From Polytrichum commune (taxonomy: Eukaryota > Streptophyta > Polytrichopsida > Polytrichales > Polytrichaceae), in the NCBI GenBank assembly GCA_950295325.1, contig OX485809.1, positions 41,013,081 to 41,077,080 on the forward strand: 64,000 nt of DNA, in the 5' to 3' direction. How positions within the stretch are numbered: position 1 is the stretch's first letter; the number at the start of each line of letters is the position of its first letter. Shown one piece after another: positions 3,962 through 44,950 of this stretch. The notes under the pieces were generated by a model, which was not told where the DNA came from, searched no databases, and was given only the letters and a program-made list of their open reading frames with translations. A program made the translations under genes and the position numbers.

Positions 3962-6362
3962 ACTTAGGGGATGGACTCTTCATAACCACGTACGGACTAA
4001 TGCAAGTGTAGAAAATGTTATCATCGAGGGATTATTGTACACGAAATACACTAGCTTGAACATGTGTCGTCTCGGCCTGTTGCACCCTTGCATATGAACC
4101 AATAGCATGGTCCACCCCGACCCCCCAAGCCCATGGGTATCCCGCCTATGGAGGTATGACCATGCCCATGAGCCGCCCCAATTTTGCACATTTAATCCCC
4201 CCCCCCCCCCCCCCCTTTCCCCCACCTTCCCACATTTGCGTCCTCTTTCTTTAGTCACATGTTTGTTTTGGGAGGGATACCTTGAGATGTGGCCCTTTCT
4301 CTTTGGGATTTTTTGTATTGTGTTTTGTGTCTTTTAGGCACGAACAAGTGGGGAGCAGTGGGGCAATGGGCTCACTACCACCTCTTCCGTTGCATGTAGA
4401 TACCGTAAGTGGGAGGTGTTGTTTTTTCTAATGCGTGCAAAGAAAAAGGCTATTGAGAAACATGAAAGTGGAGGTAGATGTATAGAGTGGAATCCTAAGG
4501 CTTGGAGGAAAAAAATGATATTAGATGTTCTAGTTGATCGAATTACCAACGTTTTCATCCAACGCCACCTCCAAAACCCAATCATGACATTTGAAACTTG
4601 TACAATGATCATGTACATGTTGTGGTATGAATATTGTATTATCACCTTCCAGCGGTATGTGAGTCCTCTTAAGAAAACGAATATTCACTTAGTCATGTTT
4701 TATACAAGTGTCACAAATATACAATGTAGTAGGTTGGTTTAAGAATTAAGAGTAAGTTGTTATGTGGGCCCACGAACACGTGAAGATCGAGAAATTGATA
4801 ATGAGCTCCACCATATTCACACGTTGAATATGGTGTGCAAAGTCTTTGTGTCCTTTCATTTGGCAAGGGAATATAATTGGTTTGCAACATGGTGCTAAGT
4901 TACTATGTTTTGTAATTGTGATAGATTGTTGAACGGCATTTTTGGTTGTGGCCTTTGATCCTCCATATTCTCGAGCTGCTAAAGGAGAAGAAATTTCGGA
5001 CACGACTTTATTCATATCTATATCAATGCAAGAATGTGTACAAAATACACAATCATTTCCTCTTCTTGAACATGTGATACTAATTGTTCAAAGTCTTTTG
5101 TAGTAAGAAATGTGTCAAGCATCGAAGGAAAAATCTCCATGAGCTCCACATATATCATGTTCAAAGTTCTCTTGAAACAAAGTGCACTCCTTCTCCCATC
5201 TTTGAAGCTTTTGCTTTGCTATGCACCTTGTTGCAATCACAATGAACCTCCTCGTAGTGGTAGCAACCTACCTTGACACAATAGTGATTTGCCCCCAAAC
5301 TAACCACGGTGCTCCTTGTGACCTACCACCCTCTCAACAACACTACAATGCCATTTCACCAACATGAGACGCCACTAGCTCTAGCTTCTTCTTATCCATG
5401 CTAACATGAACCCCTAACTTCTATGCTCCCGGGGGGGGGGGGGGGGAGGGCTACCCCTTTGCAAAGGTTGATAATGTTATGAATTTCAGATAGGATACAA
5501 CATGGTATGTACCAATGTGAATATGACATTTAGCAAGTTCTTTTAAAACACTAAATATTTTGTGTGGAACAAGATAACACTCTACAATAATCCATTGCTC
5601 ATAGTGTTGTTATATGCACAAGATGGAGTCTTCTAGCTCCACCAATATAAATGAATGCTAGGACAAATCATCCATGTTGTGAGCAATGTTTTATTATAAA
5701 TGTTCAAAACGTTTTATTATAAAAGTGAGTTCATTCGTTTGCTAGTGGGCAATGGGCATGCATTTCATCAATACGTATCTCTAAAGGTTAACTAAATACC
5801 CTATTTGTGCAAGTGGGGATATGAGAGGGGAAATAATCAATGTGATATGGAGACTCTAATTGTCTTGTCATGATGGAAATATCATGGAGTCCATGACCCC
5901 AAGTCTTCCCCTAACACGGGCCTTAAGATTTCTGACCAACACCTCACATAAAATATGGTAGTTACCTTTACATCAAAAACACCTTAAAAGAAAGTAGTTA
6001 CCATATCAACTTCCTAGGAAAACAATTAATGTGGCCCACACTAACTAAAATTAAAGATTTGGTGTGGGTTGAAATCAATTTGAGGGCTCTTAAGATTTAC
6101 TACAACCCACACTAATGGGACTAATTGTTGTACACTGATATGTACAACCAAGTTACCTTTGCGAGTAGGTTCCGTCTTACTCGTACTACCTTGGGTGTAA
6201 ACCAAATTACAAAAACTTTTAACTTTGTTTATTCATCCATCTAGCAACAACGGTAAGAAAAAACATTGTCTTTCCTTACTGTGGTAAATATACTCAAAAT
6301 ATTGTGGAATGTCAGTACATTAGCATGGGGCAACCTAGTTGCACATACTATTAGCGTAGTTA
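3962..6362. other. Intergenic with homopolymer tracts
   Basis: No gene recognised. A run of 19 C lies at 4197-4215 and a run of 16 G at 5431-5446. A 108-codon frame at 4416-4742 (+) looks basic at its start (RAKKKAIEKH) but matches nothing I know. The minus strand at 5050-5300 contains broken frames that could be transposon remains, without a diagnostic motif. Confidence 0.5.
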
Positions 6363-7238: not shown

Positions 7239-9400
7239 TTAGTTGATTAATCTTGACTCATACCTACCAAAATGTGAATACACTATAATCCCCCTAATAT
7301 CATGCTTGTGTCAATCAAATCTCATGTAATATTAAGGAGGTCTATAATGTCGATATGGAAGCATGATAATAGAGAATTAGTGTAGTGTGTGACATTATGG
7401 AATAACACAATGTCAACATTGCAATGATGGTAATGATGACAATGTGATGTGTGCCAGCATGTGGTTGAAATTCTTTGATGGATTATCTTAATGTCAAAAC
7501 CCATGATATATGGGAGGGAAATGCGACAACAAGGAAGAAGATTCAAACCGAGCACATCCGTTCCCTAGGGGTTTTAGGTATAAAAGAGGGAGGGACATTA
7601 AAAAAGGTGATATTATGGAGGTTAGGGTGTATTGTTCTGTAGAATATCAATATTAATATTCAACTTTCTAGCTTGTACTTATCACCATTTAGTAGAGGCT
7701 CCGGACATCCCACCCTTGTGTAAATTGTGAGCTTGCTAAGTTATTTCCAAGTACTCAACATTGCAATTTAAGTGGCACTCTCTAGCACGGATAGCCTATC
7801 ATTGCTAAACCTCGTGCTCCCTCAACCCAGGCATGTGAATAATGCGGCTTGGGTATGGGAATAATATGTTGTGAATCTTGAAACTCAATGATCTAAGTTC
7901 TAGTGATGCGGCAAGGTCTCCATCTCCATGGAACAAACATTTTTTAAGAAAATCTACACTTATTCATGGATTATAAACAAAATGAGGTTTTATATGTGCA
8001 ATTCTATTGGCGGACCTTATGATATAAATTGACAGCAACTAATCTTAGGATGTGGATTGTATCCCTTGTTACAACACACTTTAGTTGTATGCAAACTGTG
8101 TTATTTGTGACAAATACACACATAGAAGGAATATTCAACCATATTGCTTCTCAAAGTATGTAATGTAGAACTGGGGTTTTCATCATATTCTTCTAGTTTC
8201 TTCTTCCATATAACTTGTTTTATATTGAGCACGTCTCAACTCTGCAAAAAATACTCTCATATGCATTATTAATTTCAAAAAAATATTTTATCCATATTTA
8301 CTTAAATTCTAGTTACATTTTTGCCCATCTAATATCATTTGAAAATCCTTGCATCTTCTTCTTGAACTTTATAATATTCGCCTCTCACTCACCAACAAGT
8401 CCTACATGTTAGTTAGAGGTCATAGTTTTCAGGAAGAGCCCATAGGTCCTTGGGGGTAGGGAAGCGTTAAAGCACACTCTTGTCCACTTCCATGGTGAGC
8501 TGCACATGTCGCATGTTTTGGGTGCTCGTTCACCTCAAATAGACCATATGAGATATATACTTGTGTGGTTGGTGGATGCACCCACATTCAAATCATGATA
8601 CATCCCTTCATGTAATTAGTTCCATGGTAGAGATAATTTGGTCACATTATAGGTCAAACACATTTTGAAAGGTGAGGGACAACTTGATGATGACAATTGT
8701 CACAATTCAACCTTAACCCTTGAACATCTGAGGGGCACGAACTAGGCTCTCCATGCACAAAAACACGAATGTAAGCTATACCATACTACCTTTACCACTT
8801 TGGCACTAATTCAACTATTTTTAGGATAGTCATTTTTTGGAAATTTAAATATGAAAAATTTGGATTTTTGGGGTTTAAATCCGGGATTGCAGAATCTAAC
8901 CTAGACATTATAATAACAATTTGCCTAGAAAAGACTGAAATGGCTAAAGTCACTATGGTATACTTCCAATTTGAGCTAATCATGTCAATAGTGATCCGAT
9001 CTAAATTTAAGTCATTCTCCAAAGACACTTTTTAAATATGTTGAATGCCTTGATGCTATTGAAGACTTGAGCTCAGTTATGCAACTTGAGTGCCTTGGAC
9101 GCAAAAAACTGTATACATGTTGTGTTCTAATCACGAATGTTAAGTATGATATTTACATATTTGTTGTTGTTTTTTCTTTCTACTTGACAATGTATGCATA
9201 GGATTGCGAACCCATAATAAATATACAAAATATGATTTCTGAACTCGATGAGGCCTGTATAAATTGTGTATATTTTGAGACCATATGTTCGTTAAGAGAT
9301 AAAGCACGTGTTCCATTTTCGGTGGTGTTGATTTGTGACACGGCTACCTCATATACAAACATCAAGTGGGTATCACAACTGGTATTGCAAGATGTAGTAC
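7239..9400. other. Intergenic with a dispersed repeat copy
   Basis: No gene seen. The part from about 8700 to 9330 resembles a segment of the LRR gene intron at 25300-25660: both contain CTCTCCATGCACAAAAA, then a TGAGTGCCTTGGA-like block, then a GAGGCYTGTA-like block followed by AATTGTGTATAT, in the same order. This marks a dispersed repeat with no visible terminal structure. Confidence 0.5.
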
Positions 9401-9404
9401 CCTC

Positions 9405-9630
9405 CAGGTCGGATATCAAACCGTACCCGTTCTCTGATTGATACCCGGTTCAGACCATACCTTTCTATCCTTTTTCTGATGATACCCGGGTTAAAACCAT
9501 ATACCTCTTTCCTTTATATTCGGATTCTGGGTGAAGCCCATATGCCTATGTACTTTTGAGTATAGATACCCGGATAGGGTCCAGATGCCCGTACCCACTC
9601 CATACCCGTATTGATCCCAGATACCTGCAT
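9405..9630. repeat. Degenerate ATACCCGG motif array
   Basis: The core ATACCCG or GTACCCG occurs at least six times with irregular spacing (around 9423, 9450, 9482, 9566, 9591 and 9603), usually followed by a CAGACCATA- or CAGATGCC-like phrase. It lies directly upstream of the telo-box that precedes the snoRNA cluster. It may be a decayed minisatellite or a cluster of binding sites. Confidence 0.5.
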
Positions 9631-9655
9631 TTGATTGGTGCCATCCGCCCCCCTG

Positions 9656-9676
9656 AAACCCTAACCCTAACCCTAG
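9656..9676 (+). promoter_or_regulatory. Telo-box of the snoRNA cluster
   Basis: AAACCCTAA at 9656-9664 runs on as CCCTAACCCTAG. Telo-boxes of this kind are typical of plant promoters for ribosome-biogenesis genes, including polycistronic snoRNA clusters. The first mapped snoRNA begins about 300 bp downstream. A GCCCA (site II-like, TGGGC on the other strand) lies nearby at about 9536. No TATA box was found in the expected place. Confidence 0.6.
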
Positions 9677-9970
9677 AGTTGCAGCTGTTGCAAGCGCTAT
9701 AACATCACAGTCGTAGCCGTCTGCATTCACCGAGTTCCTCTCTCTTCCTCTCAAGAGCACTGCTCTTCGCCTTCTCTGATGTGTACGTCTCCCTCCTGTA
9801 TTTGTAGGAGGTGCTTTTATATTTTCTTGTGCATTGTTGTCTCTGCTTCAAGGCTCTCTAGAAGGAGATACAATGCTCAAGGCAATATGAGATCATTACA
9901 CAGCCTATTATGGCACAATCGTTGGTTGTTTCACAAGTCCCTGTCTGATTCAGAGTAAGGTTAGGCATGT

Positions 9971-10071
9971 GGCTGCTGTGATGATCCGGATAATCCCAGC
10001 TCGCTTTTAGCCTTCTTCAAGAAGGCGTTGAAGAGAAACCACCGTTCCAACACAACTTATCCTGAGCAGTC
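9971..10071 (+). ncRNA. C/D box snoRNA, target unknown
   Basis: This has every hallmark of a box C/D snoRNA: a perfect C box GTGATGA (9978-9984), a perfect D box CTGA (10062-10065), and a terminal stem formed by GGCTGC before the C box and GCAGTC after the D box (6 bp, one G-U). Between the boxes lies a perfect internal hairpin, GCCTTCTT / AAGAAGGC (about 10009-10025). The sequence before the D box (CAACACAACTTAT) would be the guide; I could not match it to an rRNA stretch that I remember. It is the first member of a cluster behind the telo-box at 9656. It would act in the nucleolus, or in the Cajal body if it targets snRNA. Confidence 0.72.
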
Positions 10072-10142
10072 TCATGTGACATGTATCTTTGTTTTCGGTT
10101 GTATGGTTTTCACGATTTTTCATTTAGCTTAGCCTTCTGTGA

Positions 10143-10287
10143 AGGCAATCTAACTAGAGTCACTCGTGTGCTTGGAACTGGTAGCACATACGAGCGCTGA
10201 AGGTTGCCGAGATGAGTAGTTGTCTGTAGCTGTTCAACCTGACCCTGAAGAATCTACCTGGGCAGGAAGAAGCTCGTACTCACACTA
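10143..10287 (+). ncRNA. H/ACA snoRNA, copy 1
   Basis: This folds as a two-hairpin H/ACA RNA that would guide pseudouridylation. Hairpin 1 is closed by GGCAATC (10144-10150) pairing with GGTTGCC (10202-10208) and has an upper stem TCGTGTGC / GCACATACGA with a pocket between. The hinge holds an H box AGATGA (10210-10215; ANANNA). Hairpin 2 is closed by GAGTA / TACTC, with an inner stem CTGACCC / GGGCAG. ACA follows at 10282-10284, so the 3' end should be at 10287. A second copy of exactly the same length lies at 10814-10958. The uridine target was not deduced. Confidence 0.75.
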
Positions 10288-10371
10288 TTGTGTCATTTAA
10301 ACTTTCATGTATATCCCAGAAGCATTGCGAGGTTAGTTTGAGATTGTTTCCAGACCCGGTCCTCATGGGTT

Positions 10372-10455
10372 AACAAGGATGAATAAATTGGATGTCCTCC
10401 TTCTGAAAGGCTTAGGTTATGTGTGGGTTTTAACCTCTGGAAATACTGAGTGATT
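10372..10455 (+). ncRNA. Degenerate C/D snoRNA, copy 1
   Basis: This is the counterpart of the C/D genes at 11096 and 11401. It has AGGATGA (10376-10382), GTGTGGGTT and a D box CTGA (10446-10449), but the guide reads CCTCTGGAAATA instead of CCTCTAAGAAGTA and the terminal stem GATCAC / GTGATC is broken. It has therefore probably lost its 18S target and may be a pseudogene copy of the snoRNA. Confidence 0.55.
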
Positions 10456-10514
10456 CGTGCATATTGTAATACTCAATGTCGATATTGTTCTGATTATTAA
10501 AGTCAATGGAGATC

Positions 10515-10575
10515 ATTATTGATGATGAGAATAAGATGTCATGCACCATACTTAGTTATCCGTGCTGAGATGACC
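10515..10575 (+). ncRNA. Candidate short C/D snoRNA
   Basis: A C box-like ATGATGA (10522-10528) is followed 36 nt later by CTGA (10565-10568), with TCAT / ATGA available as a short, spaced terminal pairing. It lies inside the snoRNA cluster, which is the main reason to list it. The stem is weak and no guide target was recognised. Confidence 0.25.
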
Positions 10576-10813
10576 AAACACCATAGAAATTCTCTGAGAT
10601 CATGGTCTGACATTAAATGCTTATCCAGATTTTCAAGGTATCTCACATCCCGATGATTACAATATTAGCTCTATCCGAATATATTTGAAGACATACCAAT
10701 GTAACGATTTGAGGGACTAAAGTTTTGGTATGGCATGTTTGATTTATATATGTACAGATGTATCTGACAGATTTGATTTCTTCTGAATGTACGTCTCGCA
10801 CTGTTTTGTGTCT

Positions 10814-10958
10814 AGGCAATCTGACTAGAGTCACTATTGTGCTTGGACTTTGTAGCACATATAAGCGCTGAAAGTTGCCGAAATGAGCAGTTGTCGGTAG
10901 CTGTTCAACCTGGCCCTGAAGAATCTACCTGGGCAGGAGGAAGCTCCTACTCACACTT
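10814..10958 (+). ncRNA. H/ACA snoRNA, copy 2
   Basis: Same architecture and length (145 nt) as the copy at 10143. The hairpin 1 stem is GGCAAT / GTTGCC (10815-10820 with 10874-10879), the H box is AAATGA (10881-10886), hairpin 2 has inner stem CTGGCCC / GGGCAG, and ACA is at 10953-10955. Where the two copies differ in the upper stem of hairpin 1, pairing is kept (TCGT / ACGA in copy 1; TAT / ATA in copy 2). That covariation supports a selected RNA structure. The target is unknown. Confidence 0.75.
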
Positions 10959-10978
10959 TTTGTTCTGTGAAATCTTGT

Positions 10979-11047
10979 AAGCGCTTCCCAGGAGCATTGG
11001 GAAATTAGTTTAGGATGTATCCATCGTAAGAACCTATTCTGGCACTT
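10979..11047 (+). ncRNA. Conserved hairpin segment in the snoRNA unit, copy 2
   Basis: AAGCGC at 10979 and GCACTT ending at 11047 bracket a 69-nt segment containing the small hairpin CCCA / TGGG. The matching segment at 11284-11351 has a perfect AAGTGCC / GGCACTT outer stem. Downstream of this copy lies AGACTA, an H box-like ANANNA. It may be half of another H/ACA RNA, but no second hairpin with ACA was found. Confidence 0.35.
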
Positions 11048-11095
11048 GTATATAGACTAATCAGCCTAGTGAAATCAAGACAAGCAGGAATGGTT

Positions 11096-11179
11096 GATCA
11101 CGAGGATGACAATTATCTGTAACCTCCGAAAGGCATTGGCCATGTGTGGGTTATTACCTCTAAGAAGTACTGAGTGATC
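11096..11179 (+). ncRNA. U61: C/D box snoRNA, U61-like 18S methylation guide, copy 2
   Basis: The terminal stem GATCAC (11096-11101) / GTGATC (11174-11179) encloses a C box-like AGGATGA (11103-11109) and a D box CTGA (11170-11173). Upstream of the D box lies CCTCTAAGAAG, followed by TA and the D box. These 11 nt are fully complementary to CUUCUUAGAGG, a conserved stretch of eukaryotic 18S rRNA. By the fifth-nucleotide rule the methylated residue is the second U of that stretch, which from memory is the position modified by U61 (SNORD61) in human. The C box departs from RUGAUGA at one base. The gene sits in a repeated unit with an H/ACA RNA and has a second intact copy at 11401. Confidence 0.72.
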
Positions 11180-11250
11180 CACGCTGCTGCTGTACAACAA
11201 GCAATCTGTTAAAGGGTGCACTACCTGCACACTCATCCGAGTCGTATATT

Positions 11251-11263
11251 CCTACTCACACTT
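11251..11263 (+). pseudogene. Truncated 3' end of a third H/ACA copy
   Basis: CCTACTCACACTT repeats the last stem strand and ACA box of the H/ACA copy at 10814-10958, but the preceding 130 nt are absent and replaced by unrelated sequence. The third repeat unit of the cluster therefore kept its C/D gene and lost its H/ACA gene. Confidence 0.55.
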
Positions 11264-11283
11264 CCTGTTCTGAGAAGTTTTCT

Positions 11284-11351
11284 AAGTGCCTCCCAGAAGC
11301 ACTGGGAAATCAGTTTGGGAATCTCCATCGTAAGAACTTATTCTGGCACTT
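11284..11351 (+). ncRNA. Conserved hairpin segment in the snoRNA unit, copy 3
   Basis: A perfect 7-bp inverted repeat, AAGTGCC (11284-11290) and GGCACTT (11345-11351), encloses a second perfect hairpin, CCCAG / CTGGG. It corresponds to 10979-11047. Pairing is better here than in copy 2. The function is unknown; it may be part of an H/ACA RNA or a processing signal between snoRNAs. Confidence 0.35.
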
Positions 11352-11400
11352 GGTTTATAGTCTAATCAGCGTAGGGAAATCAAGACAAGCAGAAAGAGTT

Positions 11401-11484
11401 GATCATGAGGATGACAATTATCTGTAACCTCCGAAAGGCATTGGCCATGTGTGGGTTATTACCTCTAAGAAGTACTGAGTGATC
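11401..11484 (+). ncRNA. U61: C/D box snoRNA, U61-like, copy 3
   Basis: Near-identical to the copy at 11096: terminal stem GATCAT / GTGATC (one G-U pair), AGGATGA at 11408-11414, guide CCTCTAAGAAG, D box CTGA at 11475-11478. The guide to 18S rRNA is unchanged, so this copy should be functional. It ends the recognisable cluster. Confidence 0.7.
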
Positions 11485-12089
11485 TACACTGCTGCTGCAC
11501 AACAAGCAATCTGTGCTCTACCTGCACAATACATCGCATATCGCTGAGATTCTTGTTTTAATTTTTCGAATCGAAGTTAATATGCAAATCACCTGAAAGA
11601 TCAAAGTGACTCCGATTCTCTGCGATTTGTCGGGCCTATACGTAGTCATTGACTATGGAATTAAGAATAATGTATCCAAGTGAAATTAACTACAATCTCA
11701 TTGTAGTGAGTGGAACTCTGAAGCTCTGAACTGTTTGATGGTCACTCGATCGATGTTACAACTTGTTTATCAGACTTGTGACAAACGATTTAGTAACATT
11801 AAACCTACCTTACCTACCCGCACGCTAACCAACTTGGGAAGCTCAGACCATTGAGGGCATGTGAATCGACTGTCGTCCTTGATCCGTCATTTGTGTGTTA
11901 ACCGACTTCATAACGAAGACGGGGAAGGAACGCTTTTGAGAAGATTCATTTGCAAAGCTGTATCTCTTTCTTCTTCGGATTGAAATGAAAGTATTTCAGT
12001 GATGAGACCAAGCCCCTTAACAGATTGATTGTTGCGTAATGTATCATGAACGAGGAATTGGCTGTAACCACATTACTACCGCTCGTCCT

Positions 12090-12130
12090 CACTTGGTGAT
12101 GACTTCGGCATCCTTATTACCTGACAAGTG
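12090..12130 (+). other. Miniature C/D-like structure
   Basis: CACTTG, then a perfect C box GTGATGA (12096-12102), then only 18 nt, then a perfect D box CTGA (12121-12124), then CAAGTG, the perfect inverse of CACTTG. This has the form of a C/D snoRNA terminal motif but is far shorter than usual. A second perfect GTGATGA lies upstream at 11999-12005, so the piece at 12096 could instead be a C' box of a longer RNA (about 11995-12130) without an obvious terminal stem. Confidence 0.3.
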
Positions 12131-13155
12131 CAAACGAATCCACGGGAAATCTAAGATATTTTAGAGCGTTCAAGATATCCTTGCATTCGAAATTACTCCA
12201 CACAACACCCCTTAGTCTATTTGTGAAATGTTGATAATGTCTATGGGTTCTTTATAAAGTAACACCCAGGGTAAATGCTTCGTTTAACTTGTCCTCCGTC
12301 TTTTATTTAATATATTTACATTTTCAGATTTGTATTGCATTAGCAAAACTATGATGAGGCACCTACAACCAGATTGAAAAACGGAGCTCCCATGATTTAT
12401 TACGATTATCAAAAGGACATGTTTGTTGAATCTCAATTGTGTTCATCTAGATGCAGCTCAATATCTTTTCTAAATGAATTTTTACGGTGTTTGTTCTTTG
12501 ATCGTCACTTAAAACAATAATCAAAGAAAGGTATGCGATTAAGAAAAGTAATCAAACATTACCCACATACCTTTGTATTCAAGACTGGTTGCAAATACCC
12601 TACAGTAGATGCCATATCATGCTGAAGGAGCCGAAGTGTCCTGGGAGACTATCACCGAAAATACACTCCTCTCACTTCCGAGATTCCCAGGGTCGTATTT
12701 ATTGGGATGGCGTAGGAGTTGATAAATCAAATTGATTTCGAAAAGCCGACATGCAATAGGTGTGGGAGGGGGCCACCAAATACAGTCAAGTTCTTCTCAA
12801 TAGCCAGGTGTGGGCAGATGGGATAGAAGGTGTTAATCTGATAATCAATCGCTCTGACACGATTGCCAAACTCTTTTTGCAAAACTATCATCCAGTGCCT
12901 AAAATATTTCTAATGTTTCAATTCCAGAATGATCCAGATGAAGCAAAATCAGAAGAGGTGATTGTGGACTGAATTTGCCGTTTTCATATGCATCCTGGTA
13001 CAGATCTTTATCTGTAACTAGATTTGACAAAACATACCCTATGGTGATAACTTTTCTGCTTGTGAACCACTAGCTATACTAAACGCTAACTACATTTTAA
13101 TATATTATGCAAAATTCTTTGAAAAGATAATCTGTACAAAGTGAAGAACCATTAG
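12131..13155. other. Intergenic with a repeat copy and possible exon pieces
   Basis: The part from 12297 to 12470 resembles the LRR gene intron at about 23570-23790 (shared TTGCAYTAGCAAA, CATGTTTGTTG and CAGTTGTGTTC-like blocks), so it is a dispersed repeat. At 12611-12692 and 12760-12972 there are open plus-strand stretches bounded by splice-like signals (AG before 12760; a pyrimidine-rich acceptor before NDPDEAKSEE). They may be exons of an unrecognised gene or a decayed one. I cannot assign them. Confidence 0.35.
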
Positions 13156-16693: not shown

Positions 16694-16800
16694 TGCTCTC
16701 GCTTGATGAGAGTGGAGCAACCACGTCAGGCTGCTCGAAGAAGGCTCACATTCAAGGTAAACTTAAGCGCCGCGTCACACGGGTCCCGAGTCCTAAGTCC

Positions 16801-17230
16801 CAAGTCACTTGAGGTCAATCCGTGCAATCTCAGCCGTTGAGAACATGGAAATTGGGAATTACCACTTCACACAAGATCTTAGGTCCCAAGTCACTTGAGG
16901 TCAATCCGTGCAATCTCAGCCATTGGTAACATGGAAATTGAGAACTACCACTTCACACAAGATCTTAAGTCCCAAGTCACTTGAGGTCAATCCGTGCAAT
17001 CTCAGCCATTGGTAACATGGAAATTGGGAATTACCACTTCACACAAGATCTTAGGTCCCAAGTCACTTGAGGTCAATCCGTGCAATCTCAGTTGTTGAGA
17101 ACATGGAAATTGGGAATTACCACTTCACACAAGATCTTAAGTCCCAAGTCACTTGAGGTCAATCCGTGCAATCTCAACTGTTGATAACATGGGAAATTGG
17201 GAATTACCACTTGACACAGGGTTTAAGGTT
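16801..17230. repeat. Five 86-bp tandem repeats upstream of PBCP
   Basis: The phrase CAAGTCACTTGAGG recurs at 16801, 16887, 16973, 17059 and 17145, an exact period of 86 bp in every interval. Units differ at only a few positions (for example CAGCCATTGG against CAGTTGTTGA). The array begins about 110 bp upstream of the PBCP start codon, so it lies in or next to that promoter. Each unit contains CACTTCACACAAGATCTTA, similar in style to local MITE ends. It is followed by TTTAAGGTTTAAGG near 17222. Confidence 0.9.
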
Positions 17231-32195: not shown

Positions 32196-33088
32196 AATTG
32201 CTGGATCCCCTGCATCCCAATGCAATTTGTACAGAGAACCTCTTATGCGCGTATATATTATTAAGGCTTCCACTCCTTGTTATGAAGGCACTTCACGTTT
32301 TGCTGCTATGAATCAATCTGTGTTTCAGCTTATTATTTGGACTTTCTTATCAAAATGGAACATTGTGTCCCAATTTGACAGATCTTCAGCAGATGGCAGT
32401 TATTATGTAAACTAGCTTGTTGACTAGTAACAGTAGTCTTGACAACAAATTTTGATCTGTCTTTCTGTTGCAAAATCAGCAAACATGGTAGTATTATAAG
32501 ACTGAAGAGAATATTAAGCTCACCAAAAATCCTGTGAATTCAGTTACACATACCTATCAAGTGCTTTGATCTTATATACTTTTAGTTATTTCCTTTTGAA
32601 AGCTACCTTATGTTTGTCTGACTCTTTTCCAATTGATGTTGATGCGAAGCTACTGCATATCCACACCAATCTTTATGCTTTTTATAACAGAGAAGTGCAG
32701 TGCATAGAATTAATCCTCATCCACAATGGGCAACAATTCATTTTAAATAGCCAAGAATTCTTTGTAGAAGGTCTGTTATCTGCACCTCTTCCATGAACTG
32801 AGATTGATTCTTAATGTTCAGGAAGCCAATAGGCTCATGGGACTGAAGTACCGTAGTTGTATAGCAGCTTTGGCACAAAATCATTCATAGAGTAAATGAC
32901 TGAGTTTTTAGCTAATTACTGTCGAGTGTTGCTGAAATCAATTAAAAAAATTCATAAAATGCTGAAAAGTGTAGAAATAATAGTCAATGATCAAGATATA
33001 ATAATTGCGCCACAAGTTACACAAGCCACATGAGCCACTTCCTATGGATCCAAAAACAGCGGCCAACCACATGAGGGTGTACCCGTAG
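32196..33088. other. Downstream of the LRR gene
   Basis: This probably contains the 3' untranslated region of the LRR gene and ordinary intergenic sequence. The 76-codon frame at 32566-32796 shows no domain and is not called. Confidence 0.45.
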
Positions 33089-34563
33089 GGGGTCTCTCTA
33101 AATACCCCCGACGAGCGTTGCACTTGTCAGGTGGGCGGGCAAGGGCAGCCCCAAAAAAAGCTAGAGGTTCGGACACCCGACCTTGGCATGGCCTGACCCT
33201 GGCCTAATCCCCTGACCTTGTCCACATGGATTCCCACCCGGCCTCCAGCCTGGACAGATGCCCGGTTTTCCGGCCGGCTTCCAGCCTGGCTGCCTACCCC
33301 GCCCTCCACCTGGCCACCCTCCACCTAACACCTAGCCACTCTCCACCTTCACTAGTGCACCGCCTTCCATTTGAATTTTTTTGGTTTTGCTTTGCTCGTG
33401 GCTATTGCAATGATGCGAGGAGCTTTGGTATGGTTGTCAACAACATGGCAGCGGCCATGCATATGCACTAGATCTTGGGTCTGAGGTCGTAGGACATGGT
33501 GCTGCTCCAAAAAATGCAATGGATCCAAGAGAGGGACACAATTTCATGGTGGTAGCGAAGCCCATGGACTAGATCTTGGATATGAGGGCAATGGACATGG
33601 CGTTTTTGATTTAAGATTGCAATGGATCCAAGAGAGGGACACAATTTCATGGTGGCAGCGAAGCCCATGGACTAGATCTTGGATATGAGGGCGATGGACA
33701 TAGCATTTTTGATTTAGGATTGCAATGGATCCAAGAGAGGGACACAATTTCATGGTGGCAGCGAAGCTCATGGACTAGATCTTGGATCTGAGGACGATGG
33801 ACAGGGCGTTTTTGGTTTAGGGTTGCAATGGATCAAAGAGAGGGACGCAATTTCATGGTGGCAACGATCTTGGATCTGAAGATCCAGTCCATGGACTTCG
33901 CTGCCACCATGAAATTGTGTCCCTCTCTTTGATCCATTGCAACCCTAAACCAAAAACACCTTGTCCATCGCCCTCAGATCCAAGATCTAGTCCATGAGCT
34001 TCGCTGCCACCATGAAATTGTGTCCCTCTCTTTGATCCATTGCAACCCCAAACCAAAAACGCCCTGTCCATCGCCCTCAGATCCAAGATCTAGTCCATGA
34101 GCTTCGCTGCCACCATGAAATTGTGTCCCTCTCTTGGATTCATTGCATTTTTTTGGAGCAGCGCCATGTCCTATGACCTTAGACCCAAGATCTAGTGCAT
34201 ATGCATGGCCGCTGCCATGTTGTTGACAACCACACCAAAGCTCCTCGCATCATTGCAATAGCCATGAGCAAAGCAAAACCAAAAAAATTCAAATGGAAGG
34301 CGGTGCACTAGTGAAGGTGGAGGGTGGCTAGGTGCTAGGTGGAGGGTGGGGCGGGCAGCCAGGCTGGAAGCCGGCCGGAAAACCAGGCGTCTGTCCAGGC
34401 TGGAGGCCGGGCTGGACATCGGGTGGACATGGTCGGGGGATTAGGCCAAGGTCGGGCTAGGCCAGGCCAGGGTTGAGTGTCTGAACCTCTAGCTTTTTGG
34501 GGGCTGCCCTTGCCCGCCGCCCTGACAAATGCAATGCTCGTCGGGGGTATTTAGAGAGACCCA
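33089..34563. mobile_element. Foldback element with long inverted arms
   Basis: Two arms of roughly 700 bp are inverted copies of each other. The left arm starts GGTCTCTCTAAATACCCCC; the right arm ends with the inverse (GGGGGTATTTAGAGAGACC) at 34563. The arms share GGGCAAGGGCAGCCCC, CCGGCCGGCTTCCAGCCTGG and the inner repeats below, and meet near 33870. GGGTGTA occurs just outside both ends (33074-33080 and about 34569-34575) and may be the target duplication. Each arm holds 103-bp tandem repeats. No transposase is present. Long arms with internal tandem repeats fit a foldback or Mutator-like non-autonomous element. The facing open frames at 33226-34419 are arm sequence, not genes. Confidence 0.85.
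33516..34146. repeat. 103-bp tandem repeats, mirrored
   Basis: In the left arm GCAATGGATCCAAGAGAGGG or a variant starts at 33516, 33619, 33722 and 33825, each exactly 103 bp apart. In the right arm the inverse phrase ends at 33940, 34043 and 34146, again 103 bp apart. The array is thus four units facing three inverted units around a centre near 33870. Confidence 0.88.
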
Positions 34564-39284: not shown

Positions 39285-42200
39285 TCAATCCTTCCCTTTG
39301 GTGTGGCCCAGTCCTCGGTTCCGTCCATACGCCCAATCCCTCTCTTGCGGCGGATTTAAAATGCGCAACACCTGAACAAAACAGGAACTTCAAGAATTGC
39401 TTGAAATCCATTTTAAATGAAAAATTGATAAGCATAGGATCATCACCATCATCATCAGCAGCAGCTTAGTGGTGCCGATTTAACAAACTCGTACAAATTT
39501 ACAAGAAAAGAGAATCAGAAGCAGACCTGTGTCATTCGGGGCCGCATCCCCGGATCCTTCTTCACGCACTGATTTGCCGCGTGCATCATGCAGTGCAACT
39601 CGTACTCATCGTACTCCATCCTCAACACAGGGTCCACAAGCTCCTTGTTATAAGATTCCAGCAAGGGCCGTGCCTGCATTCGCACACAGAGGCAACGTTC
39701 AAATCGTGAGTTAAGTTACGATTCCACAACAAATTGAGTGTTCTTCAACCGATCGACTGCCTATGTTAGGGTTTAGAAAGCCAAATATACAACGCTTGAA
39801 GAGTCTGGCAAACCTGGCCAATTGTTAATAACATAAGAGCAAGCCCACCTGTTGCCGTATCAGCATAACACAAATTGATTAAGGATAATTTGCTGAGAGG
39901 GCTCCTAAGCATCGCTGTATCCGCATTTGAGTACAGGAAGTGGATGCGGCCATCTACTCTCTTTTTCCAACAAATCGAGTTCGTTTGTTGCCACCGCAAA
40001 CCCTCAACAAACATAATGAGACTAGGAATCGATGACCTTATTTTCCCTCGACTTTCCAGCTAAAGGCCACTCCTTGAACTAAAATAGTCTAGGGTGGTTA
40101 GATTTATGACTTCTTTCCCACATCGTTCTACAAGACAACGTGAAATCGGTGCGAGAATGCACCGTATCCACATTCGCAAAACCAAAAGTGGATGGATGCG
40201 GGAGGATTTGTGAATATGGAGACGGCAACGGCTGGGCTGGCTCTAAGAGCAGTAACAGTCGTCACGAGATGATATAACAGCATGCTAGTTCTTACCCAGT
40301 CAGTTAAGGAGACTTCGTTTCTTGCACGTGTGTAGTCAATAGCTTTGCGGCCGGTGATGAGTTCAAGGAGGACAACTCCAAATGCATACACATCTGCTTT
40401 GTCTGTGATCTTCCCTGTCTCAGCATACTCTGGAGCCAAGTAGCCAATAGTTCCCAGCACACGGGTCTCCTCCGCCACTTCTCCGCTGGATTGCCGTCTT
40501 GCAAGGCCAAAATCTCCAACCTGACCAAACAAACCGTTAATGCAAGCATGCAAGACAGGTGCATCCAGTTTTACATCCAAGATCCTAACAATAGAGATAT
40601 CCGTTTAACTCTATGAACTTTTCTTCGGGAGTTGGCCCCCTATGATTTCCCATTGGTAGGTTTGCTCACAATATCAGTAATTTCCTCCCACTTGTGATGC
40701 TAGTAGCGTTTGAGTGCTGTTTAGGTTCATTGTGTGTCAACTAAATTTAGCACCTACTGATGGCATGCCAAAATGAGTTTGACCCTCAATGAAACGGTAC
40801 AGAATATTCTTCGTTAAAACCTCCACACTACCTCCAAGCATGAGTCAAAAACTTACCGAACATGGAAGGTCGTATATTCAAAACAACCAAATCCCAACCA
40901 GAGGTCATTAGAGTTAGAGACTAACTCTAATAACAAGCCAAATCTCTTACTAGATCAAAGCAATTAGGGACATGCAATGCCAAGTCTTACATGAAGATCC
41001 TGGCTAAGACTTTACGCGAAGAGCACCACGATGTCGGATCAAAGCAATTAAGGTTTCGGAGAAAGAAACTAACCATGGGAGTGAAGTCGTGTGTGAGAAG
41101 TATGTTGTTCGGTCGCATGTCACGGTGAACAATGCATCCCACACGGCACTCTTCGTGCAAGTATCGCAGCGCGCTCGCTGCCCCGAGTGCAATTTTGTGT
41201 CTGTACTGCCATTTCAGATCGGTCTTCCTCTTGGCTGCCATTTCTCCCAACCAAAAGCCAAAGTTAGCTCTTCTGCATGATGCTCTGGACCCTGCAATCA
41301 TTCATTAACCCTAGCGAAGTGCAAAAGTTTCGAATGAATAAAATGGGAGTGGAATCTTGTGTCTGTACAGCCATTTCAGAACCGTCTTTCTTTTAGGTGC
41401 CTTTCACTCCAACGAAGCCAATGTTAGCTCTACTGCATGATGCTTTAATTCCTACATTCATTCATTAAGCCTACCGAAGTTCTCTATCCAGAGCTATGTG
41501 CACAAGTTTCGAATGATATAAATGGGAGTAGAAGCTCCGGGTCACATACAAGAAAGATGTGTGTCAAGTGATCCGTTGCAGACATATTCATAGACGAGGA
41601 GGCGGAGGTGATTCTCCACACAGTAGCCAATGAGAGTGACAAGGTTCCTGTGCTGTGCACAGCTGAGAACCTCAACCTCTGCACAAAACTCTTCGTCACC
41701 CAGGGAGCTTGCGAGATTATGTTGCTTCACAGCCACGAGCTGGCCCTCCTTCAACTTGCCTTTGTACACAGATCCATAGCCACCCTCCGCCAGGTAATGG
41801 TCCTGGCTGAAATTATTGGTGGCCTCTTGCAACTCCTCGAAGGTGAATTTCTTCACCTTGCCAAAAGCTGGAGACATTTGACGACACAGGGAGCACAAGG
41901 GTGGAGTTCCAGGGCTATGCTTCTTGCTGGATACTGCTCGAACACTGGATGATCGATCTATAGCAGCAGCTTGAATGCTAATGCTTGCCTTCTCCGGTTG
42001 CAGATTTTCTGCTTGTTGATGATTCTTAACCTCTTGAACCTGCTTTGTTGCAACGTTGGATCGATTCCCCGCAATAGCTGCTACATCCCTCCGGTTCCCA
42101 ACGTCTAAGCTCAACAAATCAAAGGCCCAGCCAGGATCAGGTCGCCTTGGTTGCACAGAAATTGGAGCAGGGCTACTGTGACTGTTATCAGATACTGTTC

Positions 42201-44950
42201 GCTGCAATTCAGCAGCAGGAGAAGCAACACTTCTTAATTTCGTAGCATCATTTGATGCCTTCTTTGCAACACTCTCGGAGTGGTGCAGCTTGGTAGAATT
42301 AGGTACACTAAAGGGAACCTGTGGAGTTGGAGTTGAAGTTGAAGTTGAATCTTTTCTTATTGACATCGGAGGTTGAGGACTGTAAGGGTTAGGTTGGCTG
42401 TACAAATTTGCCATGTAGTCAGCTAGAGCTGCTTCGGTGAAGGGAGCGATCGGCCGAGGGAGCTGATGCATCATGTGTCCATCTGCAAAGTGACCTGCAC
42501 CATCCATTCACATGCGTTAGGTTCGTCATTGCAACAAATTTAGGGACAATACAAGTGGTGACAGGAGGTCAATTCTTGGATACATAGAGACTTGGATTCT
42601 TACCGAGGTCTGGATTTCCACAAGCAAAACGAGGATCAGCAAAATGAGGATCTACTCTGGGACTCGGTTCTGTGAGCCACCGCCGAACCGCATTGATCTC
42701 CTGGAAGTTCAACGCACCTCCAAACCCCATCCCCATTTGATTTTCGTAAGCGAGTCCCATTAGTTCGGGACCGTACACAATTCCACTTGACGTGTAATTG
42801 GCACTCTCAAATGTGAGACTATCGTCGTAGTAAAAATCTCCAGGTCGAACCCCGGACATGACGATGCTTGTGGGAGTTCCTGGCGAAAACTGTGGAGGAA
42901 GAGGTGGTTGGACTTGTGGTGGAATTGGTGGAGTTGCAGTAGCTTTGACAGACCGTTCTGGTGATGGTAGAATCCCCGCAGAGCGATCTTTACTTGCAGC
43001 AACCAACCCTTTCCTGTGTTGTTCCGAGGCGATCGAAGCCTGCTGAAGCTCCGGCATTCCATGTCGTAGATGCTCAAAATTGGTCACCGTCTTCACCCGC
43101 GTCACGAAGCACGTCAGATTCTCGATGTAGTACTTCTTGTCTTTCTTGATATGCCTATGCAGGTCTCCGAGGGTTAGGTAACAACCTATGAATTCCAACA
43201 TTTAGCTTCACAACAACAACAACTTCAACAATGCTTCAAATGCGTCATCTGAAAGGGTTCGGAAACAAACTATTAGAGCCAACATTTAAGAACGACAACA
43301 ACAATGCTTCAAATGTGTTATCTCAAAGCTCTACCTGTCAATGACCACGTATCTGGCGCCGAGCTTTTTAGCTTCCGTCACCACCAGATGCTTGGCATGT
43401 AGGTGAGCACGCACCTCAATTTCCAGCTTCGCCTGGATTACAAACATTGCGAATGCTCAGATGGCTGCAGACTCTCGACCTACAATATTCAGTGTACAGA
43501 CAAGTACACACACTATAACATTAAAACGCATATCAGAGATGGAGTTCAAAATATGGCGGTCACGATCACGATCAACATGCATTGCAATTACGGTCACGAT
43601 CACTAAACCAACCCTGGACAGTCAGGTTTCTCATATCTAAATGTGCTCAAAATTTCTACGTACTGGGTTGTGTGTATTTTTTGGCATCCCAGTAGCAGCA
43701 GCAGCCGTGTTGGGGGTGCCAGGCTGCGCTCATCTCATCATCATCATCGGTCAGGAAGCATCATCATCATCATGACTCGCTGGTCATTGAGAGATTCATT
43801 TGTTAGTTGTGTGTTCCAGGGTCATCATCATCAGGAAGCATATCTGATTCAACCTCACTGCCGATGTGTGCTTCTAGTATTCGCTGGAGATTGCTCCTGT
43901 GGAAGCTGACTCGTGCAGAAACAAAACACATTATGAAATGTTACACCTGGAGACTAGCCAGCTACTGCTCAGTCGTGATTCATGACGATTCTTTATTCCT
44001 ATGCAACATTCTTGTGTATGCATAGTCCAACACCCCCTCCCCACAGACATGATGGACAGATTGATTGACAACACAGCCAATCCTAACCCTCGATTCTCTC
44101 ACGATCACCTATGCCAATCACAAGTTACGATCCACAACCGATACCCACTTAAAACTTGCTCCCTTAAAAAACCCCATTTTCAAAAAGGCTTTTGAAATTA
44201 AATGTCTCTGTCTGCTAAACACCAAAGTCAGAATCATCATCCAGAGTGTTACAACAAGCATTGATGATTTCTGCCGCATAATCCAGCAAAAACGAAGACA
44301 AGTCTCTACTAAGCAAAAATTCAATGATGCTAAGCCACTGCATTTTGCACAACCTTGCAAGTCGAATGCAGGTAAACTAGAAAACGGTAGGTAAGCTAGC
44401 AAAACGCACAGAAGAAGAAAGAACGCAACACACACACACAAACAAACACAAACATACCCCTAACTTCTCGACGCGAGTGTAAATATCGGGGATGCTCTTA
44501 TACATCGCCAAGTGCGTGGCGAGTTCGTTGTCCAGCACTTTCCGGCTCGCTCCGTTCCAGCTATTTTCATCAGCTCGGGATTTGTAACCCACTGCATGAC
44601 AAACAAACCAAGAAAAGAAAAATTCAGTCACCCCAAAACTCTGCAGCTGGCTCTTCAACCACCGAAAAGGCACCAAACTTACTTGGATTGAAAATGTGGT
44701 GCAACACCCCTAGCAGCTTCACCGAGTCCCCTTTCTGCACCACTGAGCCTAGAGCCCAATCCAGTGCACTTGTTGACAGCTCCTTGTTCACATCGATCAC
44801 CACCAACACCACACTGCCTGCCATTTCCAACCCCTTCCCAGATTCTTCTTTTCCTCTTCCTCCCTCCACTTTCTCTCCATTTCTTTCCACTTCCTCTACA
44901 GGATTCTGGGACCGCCCCAACGGCGACTTGAAAGACTCATCCATCATCAT
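39285..44950 (-). CDS. USP-domain receptor-like cytoplasmic kinase
   Basis: Nine exons, 871 aa: 44683-44950, 44458-44591, 43335-43432, 42604-43154, 41550-42494, 41074-41234, 40296-40520, 39527-39673 and 39285-39371, all GT-AG, phases continuous, TGA at 39285-39287. It belongs to the plant family of proteins with an N-terminal universal-stress (adenine-nucleotide-binding) fold and a C-terminal kinase, often annotated as inactive protein kinase SELMODRAFT_444075-like (Arabidopsis At3g13690 type). USP part: about residues 45-185 (VVLVVIDVNKELSTSALDWAL, GARYVVIDRHIKKD). A Ser/Pro-rich linker follows. The LCSLCRQMSPAFG motif, a family signature, precedes the kinase. Kinase motifs are AEGGYGSVYKG (586-596), AVK (Lys607), HRDMRPNN (702-709), GDFGLAR (721-727) and APEY. 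Lys, HRD-Asp and DFG-Asp are all present; the glycine loop lacks its usual first Gly and HRD-K is Arg. The protein ends soon after RMTQVLRIL, short of the family's longer tail. No membrane span is seen. The ATG at 44950 is the first in frame; two more Met follow. Confidence 0.92.
40617..40905. mobile_element. MITE in a kinase gene intron
   Basis: This is the second member of the family at 26977-27282, sharing GGGAGTTGG-like ends, CACTTGTGATG, GAGTTTGACCCTCAATGA and CCTCCACACTACCTCC in the same order. It lies in the intron between the exons at 41074-41234 and 40296-40520. It is more diverged at its ends than the copy in the LRR gene. Confidence 0.65.

Follow-up and report, generated by a model that had tools for sequence, protein, structure and literature searches.

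A probable mixed C/D and H/ACA small nucleolar RNA gene cluster behind a telo-box in Polytrichum commune

A stretch of 64,000 nucleotides (nt) from Polytrichum commune (assembly GCA_950295325.1, contig OX485809.1, positions 41,013,081 to 41,077,080 of the forward strand; hereafter the window, with positions counted from its first letter) carries on its plus strand, from a telo-box at 9656 to approximately 11484, what is very probably a mixed C/D and H/ACA small nucleolar RNA (snoRNA) gene cluster of the plant polycistronic type. Its members are two H/ACA copies, two U61-type C/D RNAs, one decayed U61 relative and three other C/D candidates (Table 1). Seven of these are plausible RNAs and one is decayed, a count that fits the six to eight RNAs estimated in an initial annotation made from the letters of the sequence. 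We regard the cluster as real and as an ordinary representative of a well-known plant kind, a reading supported by the boxes, by guide-target matches to mapped modification sites and by duplicates that have stayed alike selectively in their RNA parts. These features, together with the guide complementarity and the relations among the copies, can be read directly from the sequence, and from them we infer that the cluster RNAs would be transcribed as one precursor, processed, bound by proteins and used in modification.

Table 1. Positions of the cluster RNAs and associated elements in the window
Feature	Position	Strand	Details
Site II element, promoter motif	9535..9540	-	TGGGCT; motif scan
Telo-box	9656..9676	+	AAACCCTA at 9656-9663, running on as AAACCCTAACCCTAACCCTAG; read from the sequence; probable promoter element of the cluster
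Near-perfect hairpin	9818..9889	+	81-nt stretch; z -3.95 against dinucleotide shuffles, 1/200 shuffles as good
snoR69Y-like C/D RNA	9968..10074	+	C box GTGATGA 9978-9984; D box CTGA 10062-10065; stem CTGC/GCAG
H/ACA copy 1	10144..10287	+	H box AGATGA 10210-10215; ACA 10282-10284; pocket strands 10152-10162 and 10195-10200
Decayed U61-like C/D copy	10370..10460	+	81% identical to the intact U61 copies across 54 nt
snoR21/Z221-like C/D RNA	10517..10601	+	C box ATGATGA 10522-10528; D' box CTTA 10551; D box CTGA 10594
snoR18-like C/D RNA	10649..10715	+	C box ATGATTA 10653-10659; D' box CCGA 10675; D box TTGA 10709; stem TCCC/GGGA
H/ACA copy 2	10815..10958	+	H box AAATGA 10881-10886; ACA 10953-10955
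Tandem duplication, first copy	10945..11209	+	Last 14 nt of H/ACA, spacer and U61
U61-type C/D RNA, first intact	11098..11177	+	C box AGGATGA 11103-11109; D box CTGA 11170-11173
H/ACA 3'-end remnant opening the third unit	11250..11263	+	No H/ACA RNA here
U61-type C/D RNA, second	11403..11482	+	1 difference in 80 from 11098-11177

The C/D RNAs differ in how closely they follow the canonical plan of a C box (RUGAUGA) and a D box (CUGA) closed by a terminal stem. The boxes of the snoR69Y-like RNA are exact, and those of the snoR21-like RNA are exact with a weak stem; both intact U61 copies have one C-box mismatch and a stem of 6 base pairs (bp), which in the first is GATCAC/GTGATC (11096-11101 with 11174-11179), and in the snoR18-like RNA the C and D boxes each carry one mismatch. 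The decayed U61 copy retains its C (AGGATGA) and D boxes and fails on the stem, which is gone together with the 18S guide. All three of the related C/D copies proposed initially were found, the first of them decayed, and the one further canonical C/D RNA exists, but two more candidates, the snoR69Y-like and snoR18-like RNAs, had gone uncounted. When both strands of the window were scanned for a C box with at most one mismatch, an exact CTGA and a terminal stem of at least 4 bp, four matches fell on the plus strand of 9700-11520, as against three on the rest of that strand and four on the whole minus strand. This is more than chance, with the proviso that one of the four cluster matches uses an internal CTGA of the snoR21-like RNA and not its D box.

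The guides of these RNAs point to specific bases in ribosomal RNA (rRNA). Both strands of the 64 kb were scanned for D-like boxes with at most one mismatch whose box+5 base coincides with a mapped Arabidopsis methylation site, of which 94 were used. The Arabidopsis rRNA sequences were working transcriptions; they carry the right base at 35/35 of the 18S sites in Table 1 of PMC8053127 and, for 25S above position 1000, at 59 of 60 sites with an offset of +5 (no plant 18S was found among viral contigs). Matches at a score of at least 9 numbered 22 on the plus strand and 28 on the minus strand, and at a score of at least 11 they numbered 6 and 4. Four of these six plus-strand matches belong to C/D RNAs of the cluster, comprising three RNA types within less than 1 kb: the D guides of both intact U61 copies (boxes 11170 and 11475) place 18S U1384 at box+5, the D' guide of the snoR18-like RNA (box 10675) places 18S A162 there, and the D' guide of the snoR21-like RNA (box 10551) places 18S G1275 there. 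In Table 1 and the related text available from PMC8053127, the Arabidopsis methylations at U1384, A162 and G1275 are assigned to U61.1, SnoR18 and SnoR21. The snoR69Y-like guide, CCCAGCTCGC, lies outside the box limit of the scan, its D' box being degenerate (CTTT), and forms a 10-bp duplex (one G-U) around 25S C2949, where the duplex reported for the Arabidopsis snoR69Y pair is 8 bp (PMC8053127).

Of the remaining matches at a score of at least 11, the two on the plus strand, at 4077 and 6069, contain four G-U pairs each. The minus-strand matches at 13134 and 46751 were rejected as C/D RNAs, having by eye no C box or stem; further matches lie at 32941 and at 11383, the latter being the one minus-strand match opposite the cluster. 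Two lower-scoring results in the cluster, from the CTAA box of both U61 copies to 18S A468 and from 9973 to A28 (score 9 in each case), are at background level and were not used. For the decayed U61 copy, no box+5 match to a methylated rRNA base was found. A retargeted guide was considered and rejected on either side: the D side gives just an 8-base match at about 25S U2722-2729, and the D' side a 10-bp duplex (one G-U) with 25S A2591. Both lie outside the mapped list available from PMC8053127, and the copy is therefore treated as decayed. In the available text of PMC9483110, PMC10281867 and PMC11542601, we found no methylation or pseudouridine at the predicted sites in other plants.

The relations among the copies suggest how the cluster was assembled. 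Units 1 and 2 share 81% identity over 219 nt (H/ACA and part of the spacer) and 81% over 54 nt (the 3' half of U61), and units 2 and 3 form a tandem duplication with a spacing of 305 bp. Conservation follows the RNAs: the H/ACA copies differ in 17 of 145 aligned columns inside as against 55 of 107 in the flanks (p 7e-12), and the second and third U61 copies, compared with gaps and with a 1-base indel between the duplicates, differ in 1 of 80 columns inside the RNA as against 27 of 186 outside (Fisher p 0.0007). The single U61 difference is a C to T change that keeps the terminal stem through a G-U pair. Unit 1 is old and eroded, and unit 3 is a tandem duplicate that retained U61; because the tandem duplication starts at the last 14 nt of the H/ACA, unit 3 is without an H/ACA RNA. 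The proposal of an H/ACA-hairpin-C/D unit repeated up to three times holds in part only, and the spacer hairpin as a unit element does not survive comparison with shuffles. Its copies at 10962-11090 and 11267-11395, considered as a third RNA type, fold no better than shuffled sequences (z -0.97 and -0.42), and the two fold differently; these stretches are treated as spacer, possibly acting in processing. Visual inspection also suggested another H/ACA there (TCTTG...CAAGACA), which was rejected, its stem being lost in the third unit. A 22-nt inverted repeat (91%) joins the end of the second unit (11195-11216) to sequence 0.8 kb downstream (12013-12034).

The two H/ACA copies differ by 16 substitutions and no indels over 144 nt, a length that depends on setting the 3' end three bases past the ACA by rule. 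The H boxes and ACA proposed initially for two 145-nt RNAs are present, and in both copies the ACA comes immediately after the predicted 3' stem, as is expected of an H/ACA RNA, and the H boxes fit the consensus ANANNA; their fold is taken up below. The strands of the 5' pocket, CUAGAGUCA ... GCUGA, precede the H box, with the pocket 15 nt before it, inside the 14-16 nt range usual for such pockets. A match of 10-11 bases between the left strand of the 5' hairpin and 25S was seen first, in a listing of rRNA matches, and a first pocket scan of copy 1 put this site on top with a score of 31, which the best of 40 shuffles also reached. In a scan of both copies with a fixed pocket, the best target was position 2422 of the 25S sequence used, which is Arabidopsis U2417, with a score of 36 in copy 2 (0/500 shuffles as good) and 31 in copy 1 (6/500); the reversed target scores 18. 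Pairing of the left arm extends over 9 bases in copy 1; in copy 2 it covers 10 consecutive bases, or 12 of 13 if one mismatch is allowed.

The position so identified has a modified human counterpart, which was checked after the prediction. U2417 lies 5 nt before Um2422 (U2422, 2'-O-methylated), and in human 28S the pseudouridine Psi3899 lies 5 nt before Um3904. Of the ten Arabidopsis methylations in the interval A2322-U2422, six coincide, at an offset of 1482, with a methylated human position of the same base; at this offset U2417 corresponds to human 28S 3899, and Table 1 of PMC6182160 gives this position as pseudouridine at 100%. We regard the equivalent of 25S U2417 as a well-founded prediction for the target of the 5' pocket. 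Neither a plant modification of U2417 nor a guide for it was found in the available text of the literature searched, nor was the guide of human Psi3899 in that of PMC5597630, PMC2653536 and PMC13201660; a part of PMC8351944 states that no guide is known for 13 mapped pseudouridines in domains IV and V of Arabidopsis 25S.

The covariance-model search suggested in the initial annotation returned C/D families below threshold, but none at gathering score and no H/ACA family. At E<=10, the interval 8500-13000 gave 11 Rfam matches, five of which are full-model C/D families in order on the plus strand: snoR69Y (RF01198) at 9968-10074 (27.9 bits against a gathering score of 45), Z221/snoR21b (snoR21/Z221, RF00300) at 10517-10601 (26.7 against 44), the nematode family ceN61 at 10649-10715 (23.5 bits), and snoU61 (RF01170) at 11098-11177 (27.7 against 55, E 0.0044 in 4.5 kb) and again at 11403-11482 (23.2 against 55). 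Since the U61 copies are under the gathering score, we name them U61-type by guide and target and not by threshold. The other six appear to reflect chance or overlap: RT-9, bantam, STnc50, mir-965, and, where the snoR21-like RNA lies, weaker matches to ceN61 and snR40. No Rfam H/ACA family matched either H/ACA copy up to E 10, and each H/ACA stretch has one chance match on the opposite strand (E 2.4 and 2.7).

Upstream of the RNAs lie the telo-box, present as initially annotated, and a Site II element, which agrees with the TeloSII rule of a telo-box plus Site II inside a 1-kb upstream window (PMC4660826); both motifs are also frequent elsewhere in the window, and TGGGCT, with 61 occurrences in the window where 52 are expected, is common by chance. 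Two hairpins, at 9818-9889, between the telo-box and the first C/D RNA, and at 9788-9812 immediately before it (25 nt, z -3.48), are the only elements of the cluster that stand out in folding energy, and both are upstream of the RNAs. The longer one, which the initial annotation does not list, might be an RNase III entry site or a processing signal, or a microRNA (miRNA) precursor, which is possible because snoRNA-miRNA genes have been described (PMC4660826, in part); it has no Rfam family near gathering score. Just upstream of the telo-box, diverged ATACCCGG/CCCGTACCC motifs occur on the plus strand of 9421-9610. ATACCCG occurs four times on the plus strand of the window, always within that interval, and never on the minus strand, and a 42-bp tandem repeat occupies 9433-9515.

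If the locus is a mixed cluster, RNA polymerase II would initiate near the telo-box and produce a single precursor, which would be cut and trimmed into about seven guide RNAs. The C/D RNAs would assemble with fibrillarin and the H/ACA RNAs with NAP57/dyskerin. The former would then direct 2'-O-methylation of 18S U1384 (both U61 copies), 18S G1275 (snoR21-like), 18S A162 (snoR18-like) and 25S C2949 (snoR69Y-like), and both H/ACA copies would use the pocket of the 5' hairpin to guide pseudouridylation of the base equivalent to Arabidopsis 25S U2417 (human 28S Psi3899). The copies probably arose by an older duplication of H/ACA, spacer and U61 and a later tandem duplication of U61 with its upstream spacer; the most diverged U61 copy has decayed.

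Several results count against a mixed cluster of functional guides. In the whole window, no Rfam family reaches its gathering score, and the three C/D families among the six window-wide matches at E<=1 are weak (snoR69Y E 0.82, U61 0.06, Z221 0.2), with E values from 0.06 to 0.82. The targets depend on the working transcriptions of the rRNA sequences. Table 1 of PMC8053127 has snoR18 guiding both 18S A162 and 25S A2935, and the second of these is not among the guide-scan matches of the RNA at 10649-10715, which is therefore named snoR18-like by its D' guide only. The telo-box taken alone is weak, since AAACCCTA occurs 10 times in the window where 2.6 are expected. For the H/ACA RNAs, the pocket limits were drawn from the copy 1 fold when the 25S match was already known and were then applied to both copies; under the other limits of the first scan, copy 2 gave a different top site (score 21) and missed U2417. 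Pairing in the right arm of the pocket amounts to only 3 bp and 2 bp on either side of a G-G mismatch. No target of the 3' hairpin exceeds chance (253/500 and 419/500 shuffles as good), and with an alternative pocket its scores are 25 and 31, where the best shuffles reach 34 and 33. The minimum-energy fold is not the two-hairpin one, the probability of independent arms being 0.0002 and 0.0006, and shuffled sequences fold as well as the complete RNAs (z -0.97 and -0.43); taken by itself, the 5' arm of copy 1 has z -1.96, with 8/200 shuffles as good. In the drawn fold, the structure of which is taken from copy 1, 70 of 74 pair cells are standard (94.6%) as against 32-51% when it is slid, a share that 121/500 shuffles reach. 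Copy 2 breaks four pairs and offers one two-sided change only, which 246/500 shuffles match.

Clusters are the rule for plant snoRNAs and may be mixed and duplicated, according to the available text of PMC5122169, PMC8053127 and PMC7464842. The locus resembles the TeloSII clusters of Arabidopsis and rice in having several snoRNAs, some of them duplicated, arrayed downstream of a telo-box and Site II, and resembles the HID2 clusters (SnoR4, SnoR5, U31, U33, U51; PMC8053127, in part) in mixing C/D and H/ACA RNAs, but its combination of members is different and is not named in the parts of the literature available. U61 is also clustered in rice cluster 49 and in the Arabidopsis 'U61-U14.1-U56' cluster, where it is paired with snoR14, or with U14.1 and U56 (PMC5122169, in part), whereas here it adjoins the H/ACA RNA and snoR21-, snoR18- and snoR69Y-like RNAs, and the window has no Rfam snoR14 or U14 at E<=1. 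The pairing of H/ACA with U61, initially described as unfamiliar, was found nowhere in the available open-access literature among the matches listed, and nothing there contradicts that description.

Two structured plant RNAs invite closer comparison. In Arabidopsis, the HID1 noncoding RNA is clustered with SnoR39BYa, SnoR21.1 and SnoR149 (PMC8053127), which likewise sets snoR21 beside a structured RNA, a likeness of cluster neighborhood; HID1 is described as having snoRNA-like domains and a moss homologue (PMC10226578). Viridi-trans (PMC12218528), many copies of which are close to snoR21 or snoZ266, has a long hairpin with a large conserved internal loop and then an H-box-like motif. Neither a convincing second stem nor a conserved ACA box was found in it by its authors, in contrast to the H/ACA RNAs here, which have an ACA box and a possible second stem; the comparison is by description. 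An attractive but unlikely reading is that Viridi-trans, and perhaps also the HID1 RNA accompanying SnoR21.1 in Arabidopsis, has its complete form in the H/ACA RNAs here. The family would then be, or descend from, a guide of the H/ACA type for the plant base corresponding to human 28S Psi3899, recruited in some plants to a regulatory role.

These neighbors bear on one alternative, namely that the H/ACA copies do not guide pseudouridylation but sit within a C/D cluster as a structured RNA, or as one domain of a long noncoding RNA, similar to HID1 or Viridi-trans. The fold equal to that of shuffles, the lack of an Rfam H/ACA match up to E 10, and the occurrence of RNAs with H-box-like motifs near snoR21 (PMC12218528) and of HID1 with SnoR21.1 (PMC8053127) would all suit it; H and ACA boxes at canonical places, and a pocket with a best target that corresponds to a fully modified pseudouridine in human rRNA, would not, and we consider it distinctly unlikely as a replacement for the guide reading, with which it can also be true. 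Erosion might instead affect the locus as a whole, if this were a decaying, mostly silent paralogue of a cluster intact elsewhere in the genome, with Rfam scores of 23-28 bits against gathering scores of 44-60 reflecting decay and not phylogenetic distance. The decayed U61 copy, the third H/ACA cut to its tail and the degenerate C or D' boxes in several RNAs agree with decay. The guides, however, are intact at exact sites, the U61 copies differ at 1/80 positions inside as against 27/186 outside, and the H/ACA RNA is conserved though its flanks have diverged, with both H boxes and the ACA surviving the substitutions; we judge a silent paralogue very improbable. That box-like motifs came together by chance in repeated plant DNA, with no snoRNA function, could be argued from the box scan, in which allowing one D-box mismatch gives 8 matches in the cluster against 61 on the plus strand outside it and 54 on the minus strand, so that the signal is lost in the background. 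With four guide matches falling on mapped sites within less than 1 kb, and with conservation concentrated in the RNA parts, such an assembly is hardly credible.

The mixed cluster lies in a window with several other features. The remaining Rfam matches at E<=1, MIR5998 twice and MIR814 once, fall on a palindromic repeat near 33.8 kb; here, at 33515-34147, two blocks of 103-bp tandem repeats apparently face each other in inverted orientation, and the matches suggest a repeat element, not a miRNA gene. An 86-bp tandem repeat of 4.9 copies (93% matches) occupies 16794-17218. Protein kinase exons (Pkinase/PK_Tyr_Ser-Thr), which we take to be of the plant receptor-like type, lie on the minus strand at 40128-43201 and, together with the snoRNAs and the telo-box, mark the DNA as that of a plant. 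At 41185-41480, about 1.8 copies of a 160-bp tandem repeat apparently extend from an intron into a kinase exon.

The cluster illustrates the growth of plant snoRNA clusters by partial tandem duplication together with the decay of extra copies. Its H/ACA RNA matches no H/ACA family of Rfam 15 and would bring with it a specific predicted target, a position that is fully modified in human rRNA.

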